Shown one piece after another: positions 6,008-62,730 of a stretch of DNA of 64,000 nucleotides. Below the pieces are notes generated by a model. The model saw only the letters and a program-made list of their open reading frames with translations. It made no database searches and had not been told where the DNA came from. The stretch covers positions 1 through 64,000 of the forward strand of contig NZ_JRJG01000015.1 of the NCBI RefSeq assembly GCF_000759435.1. Direction: 5' to 3'. The first letter of the stretch is position 1; the number at the start of each line of letters is the position of its first letter. The translations under genes and the position numbers were made by a program. Source of the DNA: Hoeflea sp. BAL378. Lineage in GTDB: Bacteria > Pseudomonadota > Alphaproteobacteria > Rhizobiales > Rhizobiaceae.

Positions 6008-6182
6008 AAATCCAGTGTACGGCTGTTTTTCCGGCTTATGTTTGCGACGCAGCGCGTTTCAATCGATATAGGCGGTTCGAGAGCCAAGATCAGGGTTGAC
6101 CGAGCAACCGCGCTCCGCCTAAGCCTTGCGCCAAAGGCCGGTTGGTTCGCCTTTTCCGGCAGGCGACGCGGAGACGAATTTG

Positions 6183-8852
<2,670 letters not shown>

Positions 8853-59599: not shown

Positions 59600-60169
59600 T
59601 CAGGCTTCCCGCTTGCTCAAAAGCGGAAGGCCCAGCGTCGAGGAGAACGGCGTGGTGCGCTCCCTGATCAGCCCGGCCGAGGGACCCGATTTGACCAGGC
59701 CCGACCAGGGGCCGGTGTCGCGGCTGGTGATCGCGGGCAGGAACTTCCTGCCCGACAGGATCATCGCGTCGCGCGGCAGCAGCGACGTGGCGCGCTGCCG
59801 GTAGACCTTCGGCGGAAGCGCGGCTTCGGCCGGCACATGCACCTCGTCGCGCACGCCGAGATCGATCGGGTCGAAACTGTCGAGCACGCCCTCGGCGACG
59901 AACGACGTGCCGATCGGCGCCCGCACCACGACCAGCGCATTGCCTTCGAGGATCCTGGGCGCGTAGACGGCGGCGGATCTGGGGATGACGCCGGCCTTGG
60001 ACAGCGCCGCATGGATGGCGGCGAGCGACTCGACCGCAAGCTCGGTCTCGATCGCCGGCCCGGCAATCACATCATAGTGCTTGTCGCGGAACTGCTTCGC
60101 CGCCAGGGCGTTCGCCGCGGCGCTGGCGCGCTCAGGCGTTTCATAAAGTCGCGTAATCAGCGTTGTCAT
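59600..60169 (-). CDS. Protein of unknown function divergent from the puc operon
   Basis: The 189-residue protein has no signal peptide or membrane segment. Residues 1-75 (LITRLYETPERASAAANALAAKQF, then YDVIAGPAIETELAVESLAAIHAALSKAGV) resemble the small alpha/beta stress-protein fold in which a strand and helix handle residue pairs (YflT-like), seen in pieces only. The second half (GNALVVVRAPIGTSFVAEGVLDSFDPID) may repeat the fold, and the tail is basic. It shares a regulatory region carrying PpsR- and FNR-type sites with pucB, so a role in antenna assembly or photo-oxidative stress is possible (inference). Confidence 0.65.
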   Translation of the reverse strand: MTTLITRLYETPERASAAANALAAKQFRDKHYDVIAGPAIETELAVESLAAIHAALSKAGVIPRSAAVYAPRILEGNALVVVRAPIGTSFVAEGVLDSFDPIDLGVRDEVHVPAEAALPPKVYRQRATSLLPRDAMILSGRKFLPAITSRDTGPWSGLVKSGPSAGLIRERTTPFSSTLGLPLLSKREA

Positions 60170-60241: not shown

Positions 60242-60270
60242 TTATGTCACGCAAACATAACAATCATGGA

Positions 60271-60288
60271 TGTCAAGTCAATTTGACG
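60271..60288. promoter_or_regulatory. PpsR/CrtJ-type site 1 (TGTC-N10-GACg)
   Basis: TGTC at 60271-60274 and GACG at 60285-60288, 10 nt apart, match the PpsR consensus TGTC-N10-GACA with one mismatch. The inner bases continue the dyad (TGTCAA with TTGACG). PpsR represses photosynthesis genes in oxygen and light. Confidence 0.55.
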
Positions 60289-60388: not shown

Positions 60389-60406
60389 CGTCAATAAGAG
60401 TTGACA
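60389..60406. promoter_or_regulatory. PpsR/CrtJ-type site 2 overlapping the -35 box
   Basis: CGTC at 60389-60392 and GACA at 60403-60406, 10 nt apart, match TGTC-N10-GACA with one mismatch. The right half lies inside the TTGACA (60401-60406) that would be the -35 element for pucBA, so binding would block RNA polymerase. The two sites are 118 nt apart, compatible with cooperative looping. Confidence 0.55.
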
Positions 60407-60557
60407 CTTGAAACCGTAAAAAGATTGTGACAACTTAGCTGTTGGCAAAGTCCGGGGACGAGTGCGCGCAAGCGTGGGCGTTGAGTGGATTGGCCAGTCT
60501 GGACCCGTTGCGGATCCCGCGCGGGCCTTAATACTACCGCCTGAAGGAGATGGCGCA

Positions 60558-60713
60558 ATGAATTATGATCCTGACAAAGTATGGCCATCAGGCCTGACCA
60601 TCGGGGAGGCGGAAGAGCTTCACCGGCATATCATCGACGGCACGCGTGTATTCGGGTTTATCGCCATCGTGGCGCATATTCTCGCCTATGTTTACACGCC
60701 CTGGTTCGGGTGA
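60558..60713 (+). CDS. pucB: Light-harvesting LH2 complex beta polypeptide
   Basis: The 51-residue single-helix membrane protein binds bacteriochlorophyll in the peripheral antenna. GLTIGEAEELHRHIIDGTRVFG is the LH2 beta N-terminus, with H22 and R30 at positions that contact the B800 pigment, and H40 in FIAIVAHILAY is the ligand of the B850 bacteriochlorophyll. The end YTPWFG matches the family; the preceding AYVY is slightly LH1-like. AAGGAG lies 8 nt before the ATG. GTRVFG separates it from LH1 beta (PufB). pucA follows after 12 nt. Confidence 0.93.
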   Translation: MNYDPDKVWPSGLTIGEAEELHRHIIDGTRVFGFIAIVAHILAYVYTPWFG

Positions 60714-60725
60714 GGGGAGAGCGCT

Positions 60726-61064
60726 ATGAACAACGCAAAACTCTGGCTCGTGGTCAAGCCGACCGTCGGCGTGCCGCTGTTTCTTACGGCCGTTGCGGTG
60801 AGTTCCTTCGCCACCCACGTTGCGGTGATGAAGTACTCCAAATGGTTGCCGGAATTCTATGCCGGCGCCGTGATCGAAAAACAGGCTGATGTCGCTATGG
60901 CCGGCCCTGGCTCCAATGCGGTTGTCGTCTTCGACAGCGGCTTGAGCCTGGCCTCCGGCGGAGCGCAGCAGGGCGTCGTGGTTCTGCCTGACGGCCGCAC
61001 CGCACGCGTGGTTTTCGAAGATCAGACTCCGATCGACGGCACCAAGACAGCATCGCTTGAATAG
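60726..61064 (+). CDS. pucA: Light-harvesting LH2 complex alpha polypeptide with long C-terminal extension
   Basis: Residues 1-47 are an LH2 alpha chain: MNNAKLWLVVKPTVGVPL with Met1 that ligates B800, one membrane helix, and H31 (the B850 ligand) at the canonical number. W40 is followed by LPEFY, so positions 44 and 45, which hydrogen-bond B850, are Phe and Tyr rather than Tyr-Tyr or Tyr-Trp. Residues 48-112 are an extra soluble tail of about 65 residues (VVVFDSGLSLASGG, VVVLPDGRTARVVFEDQ). Usual alpha chains have 50-60 residues; one known Rhodobacter PucA2 also carries a long tail. The tail would face the periplasm. Confidence 0.92.
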   Translation: MNNAKLWLVVKPTVGVPLFLTAVAVSSFATHVAVMKYSKWLPEFYAGAVIEKQADVAMAGPGSNAVVVFDSGLSLASGGAQQGVVVLPDGRTARVVFEDQTPIDGTKTASLE

Positions 61065-61320: not shown

Positions 61321-62730
61321 ATGAATCGCTTCAGTCGAAAAGCCATGCAGAGCTGGGCGAGCCTCGGGCCGCGGTTCCTGCCTTTCGCCGACGTGGCGAC
61401 CGACGACCTGCCGCTGAGCCGCCTGCTCAGGCTGTCGCTGTTCCAGGTGTCGGTCGGCATGGCGCTGGTCCTGCTGGTGGGCACGCTCAACCGGGTCATG
61501 ATCGTCGAACTCACGGTGCCCGCGTCGCTGGTGGGGGTGATGATCGCGCTGCCGATCGTCTTCGCGCCGTTTCGTGCCCTGATCGGCTTCAGGTCCGATG
61601 TCCATAGTTCGGCGCTCGGCTGGCGGCGCGTGCCGTTCATCTGGCGCGGCACCATGCTTCAGTTCGGCGGCCTGGCGATCATGCCGTTTGCGCTGCTGGT
61701 GCTGGGCGGCCAGGGCCATGCAAATTCCGCTCCGGTCTGGATCGGCTATCTCGGCGCCGCCACCGCGTTTCTCCTTGTCGGCGCCGGGCTGCACATGGTG
61801 CAGACGGTCGGCCTGGCGCTCGCCACCGATCTCGCCCCCGTCGAGGATCAGCCCAAGGTGGTCGGCCTCATGTATGTCATGCTGCTCGCCGGCATGATTT
61901 TCAGCGCCCTGGTGTTCGGCCTGGCGCTCGAGAATTTCAGTCCCGGCCGGCTGGTCCAGGTCATCCAGGCCTCCGCAGTGGCGACCGTTGTGCTCAACGT
62001 GCTGGCGCTGTGGAAGATGGAGGCGCGGCACAGCCGGCCCGGAGCTGTCCGGGGCGAGGCGAGGGCGGAAACGCCCGAATTCGCCGCATCCTGGGAGAAG
62101 CTCATCAACGGCGGCCAGGCCAAGCGGCGGCTGATGGTCGTCGGGCTCGGCACGCTCGGATTCGGCATGGCCGATGTGCTGCTCGAGCCCTATGGCGGGC
62201 AGGTTCTCGCGCTCAGCGTGGCCGACACCACCAAGCTTACTGCAATCCTGGCCTTTGGCAGCCTGCTGGGCTTTGCCTGGGCGTCCCGCGTGCTCGGTCG
62301 CGGCTTCGACCCGCTGATGATGGCGGGCTACGGCGCGCTGGTCGGCGTGCCCGGCTTTCTCGCCATCTGCCTTGCCGCGCCGCTGGGCTGGCCGTTCCTG
62401 TTCGTCGGCGGAACCGCGCTGATCGGCTTCGGCGCCGGCCTGTTCGGCCACGGCACGCTGACGGCGACGATGCAGCTTGCGCCGCGCGAGCAGATCGGCC
62501 TGGCGCTCGGCACCTGGGGCGCGGTCCAGGCCACCACCGCGGGCGTCGGCATCGCCTTCGGCAGCATGATGCGCGACATCATCCTGGCGCTGCCGATCGG
62601 CTCCTGGTTCGGCGCCGCGACCCCCTATATTTCCGTCTATGCGCTGGAGATCCTGTTCCTGCTCGCGGCTCTCGCCGTCATCGCGCCCCTGCTGCGCGGC
62701 CGCGCCACGCCGGGCCTGAGCGCCTCGTAG
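61321..62730 (+). CDS. pucC: PucC/LhaA-type light-harvesting assembly transporter (BCD family MFS)
   Basis: The 469-residue protein has about 12 membrane helices and belongs to the bacteriochlorophyll-delivery branch of the major facilitator superfamily. Family stretches are LPLSRLLRLSLFQVSVGMALVLLVGTLNRVMIVEL (residues about 27-60), FRALIGFRSDVHSSALGWRRVPFIWRGTMLQFGG, and DVLLEPYGGQVLALSV. PucC is needed for LH2 assembly. It follows pucBA by 256 nt in the same direction. The ATG at 61321 is used; a GTG at 61309 is in frame. LhaA (LH1 assembly) is a close relative, but the context favours PucC. Confidence 0.92.
   Translation: MNRFSRKAMQSWASLGPRFLPFADVATDDLPLSRLLRLSLFQVSVGMALVLLVGTLNRVMIVELTVPASLVGVMIALPIVFAPFRALIGFRSDVHSSALGWRRVPFIWRGTMLQFGGLAIMPFALLVLGGQGHANSAPVWIGYLGAATAFLLVGAGLHMVQTVGLALATDLAPVEDQPKVVGLMYVMLLAGMIFSALVFGLALENFSPGRLVQVIQASAVATVVLNVLALWKMEARHSRPGAVRGEARAETPEFAASWEKLINGGQAKRRLMVVGLGTLGFGMADVLLEPYGGQVLALSVADTTKLTAILAFGSLLGFAWASRVLGRGFDPLMMAGYGALVGVPGFLAICLAAPLGWPFLFVGGTALIGFGAGLFGHGTLTATMQLAPREQIGLALGTWGAVQATTAGVGIAFGSMMRDIILALPIGSWFGAATPYISVYALEILFLLAALAVIAPLLRGRATPGLSAS

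Follow-up and report, generated by a model that had tools for sequence, protein, structure and literature searches.

A long-tailed LH2 alpha chain with Phe44-Tyr45 beside a candidate gamma-belt-family gene in Hoeflea sp. BAL378

What does a light-harvesting complex gain from an alpha chain whose C-terminal tail is longer than the antenna domain itself, and where would such a complex absorb if the residues facing its B850 pigments were Phe44 and Tyr45? Both questions are raised by an open reading frame in a 64,000-nucleotide stretch of the Hoeflea sp. BAL378 genome (hereafter the window).

The puc operon and its alpha chain

The features of the locus that concern the alpha chain are as follows.

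60558..60713, + strand: pucB, LH2 beta chain, 51 aa (PF00556, 42.2 bits; homologues at all 84 related loci)
60726..60866, + strand: pucA core, residues 1-47, with Met1, His31, Trp40, Phe44, Tyr45 and Gly47 (ORF translation, Pfam)
60867..60965, + strand: pucA tail, variable linker, residues 48-80 (dN/dS 0.27, 20 pairs; AlphaFold2 mean pLDDT 46-54 for residues 51-80)
60966..61019, + strand: pucA tail, conserved, predicted beta-hairpin QQGVVVLPDGRTARVVFE, residues 81-98 (dN/dS 0.08; strands 81-86 and 92-97 predicted, pLDDT about 60)
61020..61064, + strand: pucA tail, residues 99-112, a short variable end with the stop codon (dN/dS 0.33)
61321..62730, + strand: pucC, LH2 assembly factor family (PF03209, E 7e-146; 84 of 84 related loci)

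The frame at 60726-61064 (+) encodes 112 residues, and its translation shows M1, H31, W40, F44 and Y45, with 65 residues beyond residue 47. The original prediction had placed Met1 and His31 at canonical positions, followed by a Phe44-Tyr45 pair and a 65-residue tail longer than the antenna domain, and this is what the translation reads (tail 65 aa, core 47 aa). The product matches the Pfam LHC family (PF00556) at 33.9 bits against a cut-off of 23, and its closest PDB chain in a whole-chain search was an LH2 alpha (7pbw). The PF00556 core, the B850-ligating histidine (H31) and the N-terminal methionine identify an LH2 alpha chain (PucA), and so does the context, with pucB adjoining at a distance of 12 bases, pucC 3' of pucA, and a location separate from pufBA. 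A search of the whole Hoeflea genome with PF00556 gave four matches, namely the pucB and pucA of the window and two more on contig 60, which we take to be an LH1 pufB/pufA pair with a PufL-like frame after it. The product of 60726-61064 was the sole LH2 alpha found in this genome, and the LH2 ring would therefore be built from it. An LH1 beta assignment of pucB (60558-60713, +), which exceeds the cut-off of NCBIfam NF040862, was rejected, the gene context being that of LH2; this label is a possible source of misannotation.

Among the best 80 of 352 relatives, the closest named alpha was the orthologue from Hoeflea olei (G005, labelled as the same genus), which is 92% identical. The nine substitutions between the two chains fall in the linker (six) and in the end (three), with none in the core or the hairpin, and conservation in this orthologue indicates that the frame is more than a chance one. 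In a midpoint-rooted PucC tree of 84 rows the window groups with H. olei, next with a Hoeflea metagenome-assembled genome (MAG), and next with G001, with starred support at each step. We read 60726-61064 as the pucA gene of the single LH2 operon (pucBAC) in a Hoeflea with photosynthesis genes.

Residues 44 and 45 and the expected absorption

In Rba. sphaeroides, Tyr45 donates a hydrogen bond to alpha-B850 and Tyr44 of the next alpha chain to beta-B850 (PMC9618040). Judged from mutants and structures, Phe44 would remove the bond to beta-B850 and Tyr45 would keep that to alpha-B850, and the long-wave band would therefore lie below 850 nm but above the approximately 805 nm of relatives with Phe44-Leu45; our estimate is about 815-840 nm. 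The moderate blue shift originally proposed for this pair is supported by the same pair in the Rba. sphaeroides alpha-Y44F mutant, which at 4.5 K absorbs at 838.3 nm as compared with 851.7 nm for wild type and 827.2 nm for alpha-Y44F+Y45L (PMC11440610), and is described elsewhere as B800-839 (PMC9618040). The mutant shares Phe44-Tyr45 and Ser27 with the window chain, but it is without a hairpin tail and has TTTT at positions 36-39 where the window has KYSK.

The further proposal, that losing both hydrogen bonds gives a B820 spectrum, is incomplete: the loss need not end at B820, because PucD-LH2 of R. palustris, which is without these hydrogen bonds, absorbs at 803 nm (PMC9618040), and the Phe44-Leu45 LH2s of aerobic phototrophs have one band at about 804-806 nm, for example 806 nm in Roseicyclus mahoneyensis (PMC12654162). 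The mutant scale may not carry over, because natural Phe44-Leu45 complexes are some 20 nm bluer than the engineered double mutant. R. mahoneyensis is represented among our loci (L033) by an alpha with Phe44-Leu45 and a PDG tail, and a species with such an alpha thus has a recorded spectrum. Its locus resembles the window in alpha core type, PDG-hairpin tail, pucC and the gamma-family gene described below, but the latter lies downstream there and is divergent in the window.

In LH3 (B800-820) complexes neither residue 44 nor residue 45 is able to hydrogen-bond. The window alpha does not fit this type, as it has Tyr45 and, at residue 41, a leucine; in R. acidophilus 7050 the bond comes from Tyr41 instead (PMC9618040). 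The single-band High-800 or 'LH4' type at about 805 nm (Roseobacter denitrificans, R. mahoneyensis, Dinoroseobacter shibae) has the motif Phe44-Leu45, whereas the window and H. olei have Phe44-Tyr45. They are the two such chains among 81 (the window and the best 80 of 352 relatives), the others being 72 Phe-Leu, five Tyr-Leu, one Tyr-Tyr and one Tyr-Trp. Since Phe44-Tyr45 sits inside Phe44-Leu45 sisters within Hoeflea, one regain of Tyr45 appears simpler than two parallel losses, by a parsimony argument on few taxa with Tyr-Tyr and Tyr-Trp as the nearest outgroups.

The complex might nevertheless show a single band at about 805 nm, as in the Phe44-Leu45 relatives, if Tyr45 made no effective hydrogen bond in this background. 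The peripheral LH of Hoeflea phototrophica, at 805 nm, and the Phe44-Leu45 LH2s near 800-806 nm (PMC12654162) speak for such a band, but the window chain has the Tyr45 that binds alpha-B850 in Rba. sphaeroides, in a position nested among Leu45 chains in the PucC tree, and we consider this outcome rather unlikely. The preferred reading is the intermediate band.

A variable linker and a conserved hairpin

The tail consists of a poorly conserved linker and a conserved, predicted beta-hairpin (VVVLPDGRTARVVF). Across 20 disjoint close pairs at >=75% identity (Nei-Gojobori, custom script), dN/dS was lowest in the core (0.02) and low in the hairpin (0.08), as compared with 0.27 for the linker and 0.33 for the end, values that rule out an unconstrained read-through. 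From the hairpin value, and from the absence of any core or hairpin change relative to H. olei, it follows that the tail is very likely translated and its hairpin functionally useful. AlphaFold2 (22 sequences) predicts strands 81-86 and 92-97 flanking an LPDGR turn, a fold of low confidence (pLDDT about 60, mean 63).

No solved chain bearing the hairpin was among the PDB matches of searches with the whole chain and with a tail profile. When Pfam was searched with tails only, that of the window gave no match, and 11 families were weakly matched, each by one or two of 21 members; the plasmid collection gave no match at E 0.01. In the literature search, which covered few subscription papers, no paper on a PDG-hairpin tail was recognised.

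Such a tail had been thought rare. The turn [LM][PSAD]DG-x within a tail of 39-76 residues was read in 81 of 81 chains (window and best 80 of 352 relatives), a biased count, because the chains had been selected by similarity to a tailed query. Genome samples are less biased. In these, genomes were taken as LH2-positive if they matched a profile of tailed chains; the number of candidates scored per genome was capped, and negatives are therefore not absolute. Rhodobacterales, to which R. mahoneyensis (genome G445) belongs, had 58 LH2-positive genomes among 390 sampled, with up to 12 candidates scored in each. In 46 of these 58 genomes the match extended to profile position >=98 of 110, that is, through the linker and PDG hairpin, so that the tail is not rare; two of the 46 (G445 and G446) had been reached via tailed loci. 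One further genome (G462) matches to position 74 and has lost the tail motif. In the remaining 11 no tail homology was found; five of them (G540, G709, G747, G774, G825) have Ala/Pro/Glu tails, and two (G798, G809) were not readable as chains. In a class-wide sample 12 of 385 genomes were LH2-positive, and profile coverage indicated the hairpin in two of the 12, the window included. In the window's own order, with 24 LH2-positive genomes out of 397, tails were read in the 20 that lie outside family f203; four of the 20 have a plain DG-R/K/T hairpin (G000, G059, G857, G1068), three a variant one (G037, G868, G904), and 13 other tails or none. The hairpin thus appears to mark certain LH2 lineages and to be neither universal nor rare. 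LH2 can do without it, because it is missing in 11 of the 58 positive Rhodobacterales genomes and in ten of the 12 positives of the class sample.

Nor did the suggested likeness to PucA2 of Rba. sphaeroides hold. Both chains have an LH2 alpha core and a long C-terminal tail, but Puc2A (PucA2) of a sphaeroides-like genome has 263 residues, with a mostly Ala/Pro/Glu low-complexity tail and no PDG hairpin; the window tail is not long and Ala/Pro/Glu-rich, and it has no similarity to the PucA2 tail. Wild-type Rba. sphaeroides LH2 is itself reported to be without Puc2A (PMC9618040). In the sphaeroides-like Puc2A (L169, 393-1181), about 55 residues of ordinary composition (GGYVVNMTDANGMPVAATLDP) follow the Ala/Pro/Glu tract and resemble a small beta domain; Pfam found no domain in these terminal residues.

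By standard LH2 topology the hairpin would lie in the periplasm, one per alpha chain, and a nonameric ring would place nine hairpins at the opening of the inner alpha ring. There they would most likely pair with each other or with a neighbour and thereby stabilise the ring or its packing. A periplasmic crown of tails is plausible, because with a sole LH2 alpha found in the genome each alpha would carry the tail unless it is removed; processing of the tail could occur.

Instead of closing its own ring, the hairpin might dock on another periplasmic partner, such as the reaction-centre cytochrome, LH1 or adjacent LH2 rings, and so organise antenna packing. A linker of about 33 residues could reach past the ring, and the hairpin is the conserved element of the tail; on the other hand, no partner was identified, and the hairpin follows no spectral type, as its motif occurs with Y44-W45, Y44-Y45, Y44-L45, F44-Y45 and F44-L45 alike (81 chains: the window and the best 80 of 352). 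We hold docking to be doubtful. A tie of the tail to one spectral class is ruled out by the same five pairs.

It is still less probable that the tail is an aid to assembly or export, pushing the alpha C-terminus across the membrane or recruiting PucC, and trimmed or idle in the finished ring. A C-terminal extension of the Rubrivivax gelatinosus alpha was reportedly studied for its part in LH2 biosynthesis (by Steunou et al. in 2004), and poor conservation of the linker would suit such a role, but a conserved hairpin beyond a variable linker suits binding better than a generic export aid, and many genomes have LH2 alphas without it. Hairpins that stabilise the ring or its packing remain our preferred reading.

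The divergent neighbour and the gamma belt

Upstream of pucB, the window has a divergent gene and two pairs of palindromes.

59600..60169, - strand: LH2-linked gene, candidate gamma-belt family, with a predicted N-terminal alpha/beta domain (about 1-112), an extended C part and one scored unit, FSSTLGLPLL (profile homologues, AlphaFold2, repeats)
60245..60288, no strand: tandem PpsR/CrtJ-type palindromes nearer the gamma-family gene (60245-60262 and 60271-60288, 8-bp gap; consensus match)
60389..60432, no strand: tandem PpsR/CrtJ-type palindromes nearer pucB (60389-60406 and 60415-60432, 8-bp gap; consensus match)

Neither Pfam nor NCBIfam matched the product of 59600-60169. ORF profile searches found relatives in 79 of 84 puc loci (L007-L090, in which two genomes appear twice), lying either 5' of pucB in divergent orientation or 3' of pucC. 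AlphaFold2 (30 sequences) modelled the residues up to about 112 as an alpha/beta domain, for the most part confidently (pLDDT >=90 for 91 of 189 residues), and the C part as extended (pLDDT about 52). A fold search with the gamma-family model matched nothing at E 0.001 or better; the entries shown were nucleoside diphosphate kinases or their kin with TM of roughly 0.2-0.3, to which we attach no weight.

The C parts are repetitive. A matrix derived from 14 seeds of four loci and scored at threshold 8 on 77 other proteins found 150 sites in their C parts and one in their N parts, as compared with a mean of 1.8 in shuffles (largest 5); these sites are not independent because the proteins are related. 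The spacing was 25 residues in 59 cases. Up to eight units were scored: nine of 81 family proteins have none, the window protein has one, and six of the 81 have seven or eight. Seven or eight 25-residue units are scored in proteins of L018 (6016-7062), L012 (4163-5209), L076 (5891-6937) and L087 (5893-6951), each about 350 aa long, and in some of these a further weaker unit or two can be seen by eye, approaching or matching a nine-unit ring. L027 has tandem family genes 3' of pucC, one long and one short (6090-7124 and 7338-8018).

The LH2 gamma of Rps. palustris (RPA1495) has six repeats, 'EYKGHSGHPLIKQEG', whose serine ligates bacteriochlorophyll, and it runs as a ribbon round six of nine subunits (PMC9618040); in the BLASTp search of that paper gamma was confined to Rhodopseudomonas. 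Our own pattern search for gamma matched eight of 276 genomes. Seven belong to one genus, taken for Rhodopseudomonas, of which 16 genomes were sampled; the eighth match (G1211) was rejected as chance, in an unrelated protein. The gamma gene lies downstream of pucBAC in the three presumed Rhodopseudomonas genomes examined, and in all seven the same 3-kb locus encodes a protein of 214-216 aa, whose gene stood directly before gamma in the one locus where the order was read. In the three genomes examined, the window-family profile matches this protein along its length (E 1e-19, 1e-19 and 4e-17; 264 ORFs searched). In one of them the repeats of the protein align with gamma over 85 residues at 53% (E 3e-24, calculated for an assumed database size with low-complexity filtering off), and the protein contains both a gamma-type unit, FSGTPLL, and a window-type unit, FSSWLGLPVL (window FSSTLGLPLL).

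In our reading, the window family, the 214-216-aa protein and gamma form a single family, in which gamma would be a short member without the folded domain. Like the window family, gamma is linked to LH2 and has extended repeats ending in P-L-[LI]; unlike it, gamma is 97 aa long (as read in the genome), with a 16-residue period, a serine that ligates bacteriochlorophyll and no folded domain described, whereas the Hoeflea protein has a predicted folded N domain and one scored unit, in a family with a period of mostly 25 residues. The link to gamma is indirect and depends in part on short repeats, and repeats shared without common descent are possible. Pigment binding by the window family cannot be assumed, because neither the protein nor the family profile had a significant match among PDB chains and the form [FYHW]S...GxP[LV] occurs in nine of 81 members. 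The 14-kDa gamma of Rb. capsulatus, PucE, may be a further member. No gamma homologue outside Rhodopseudomonas was recognised in the literature search, where subscription papers were little covered.

The family follows LH2. Within Hoeflea it was present in all four LH2-positive genomes and in none of the 14 that are LH2-negative; two of these 14 are only 75-77% complete. It was matched in 32 of 34 other LH2-positive genomes (G088 and G188 had none); three of the 32 (G059, G156, G857) appear to have supplied profile rows, and some of the matches are weak and away from puc (e.g. in f203, E about 1e-5). In Rhodobacterales, with up to eight candidates scored per genome and some sampled genomes having supplied profile rows, strong matches were found in 47 of 58 LH2-positive genomes, that is, all 46 hairpin genomes plus G462, but in none of the 11 without hairpin homology and in none of 332 LH2-negative genomes. 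Ten genomes gave weak matches only, six of them LH2-negative and matching in the N-terminal part. The hairpin-less, LH2-positive G758 and G799 (three contigs each), G726 and G809 match weakly, mainly in the repeat part.

That 59600-60169 encodes an unrelated protein, a regulator or stress protein that only happens to lie next to puc, is quite unlikely: weak matches to the YflT stress-domain family (eight of 30 members, best E 0.0013) and the weak N-terminal matches in six LH2-negative Rhodobacterales genomes favour it, but it has to face near-perfect co-occurrence with LH2 in Hoeflea and with hairpin LH2 in Rhodobacterales, the presence in 79 of 84 puc loci, the PpsR-type palindromes and the repeats linked to gamma.

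The palindromes were found by scanning for TGTCA-N8-TGACA (consensus from PMC2654016) with up to two mismatches. The 64-kb window has 17 matches where 11.7 are expected, and four of them lie between the divergent genes; the 501 bp before pucB contain four, as compared with a shuffle mean of 0.2 (largest 2). Both pairs are kept in H. olei and the Hoeflea MAG, G001 has six sites, and eight other loci tested have one to three. This fits PpsR control of the genes on both sides through putative operators.

Taken as a whole, it is on balance probable that the locus encodes a pucA with a selected hairpin tail and an intermediate band, next to a gene of the gamma-belt family under shared PpsR-type control. 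Here 59600-60169 would most likely encode an LH2-associated gamma-belt-family protein, and tandem PpsR-type operators would control it jointly with puc. Far more tentatively, the LH2 of many alphaproteobacterial aerobic phototrophs may have two unrecognised accessories, a periplasmic ring of alpha hairpins and a gamma-type belt of 25-residue units round the alpha-beta ring, the latter possibly holding extra 800-nm bacteriochlorophylls that add to 'High-800'.

There has been a call for cryo-EM work on the single-band peripheral antennas found in aerobic phototrophs (PMC12654162), and a hairpin and a gamma-family gene in one locus are concrete parts to seek in such maps. The natural Phe44-Tyr45 chain and its Phe44-Leu45 sisters, all of one genus, offer a ready comparison for the effect of one hydrogen bond on the band. 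If gamma-type belts prove widespread, the statement in PMC9618040 that confines gamma to Rhodopseudomonas would have to be revised, and belt-bound pigment, rather than lost hydrogen bonds alone, may account for part of the High-800 signal.
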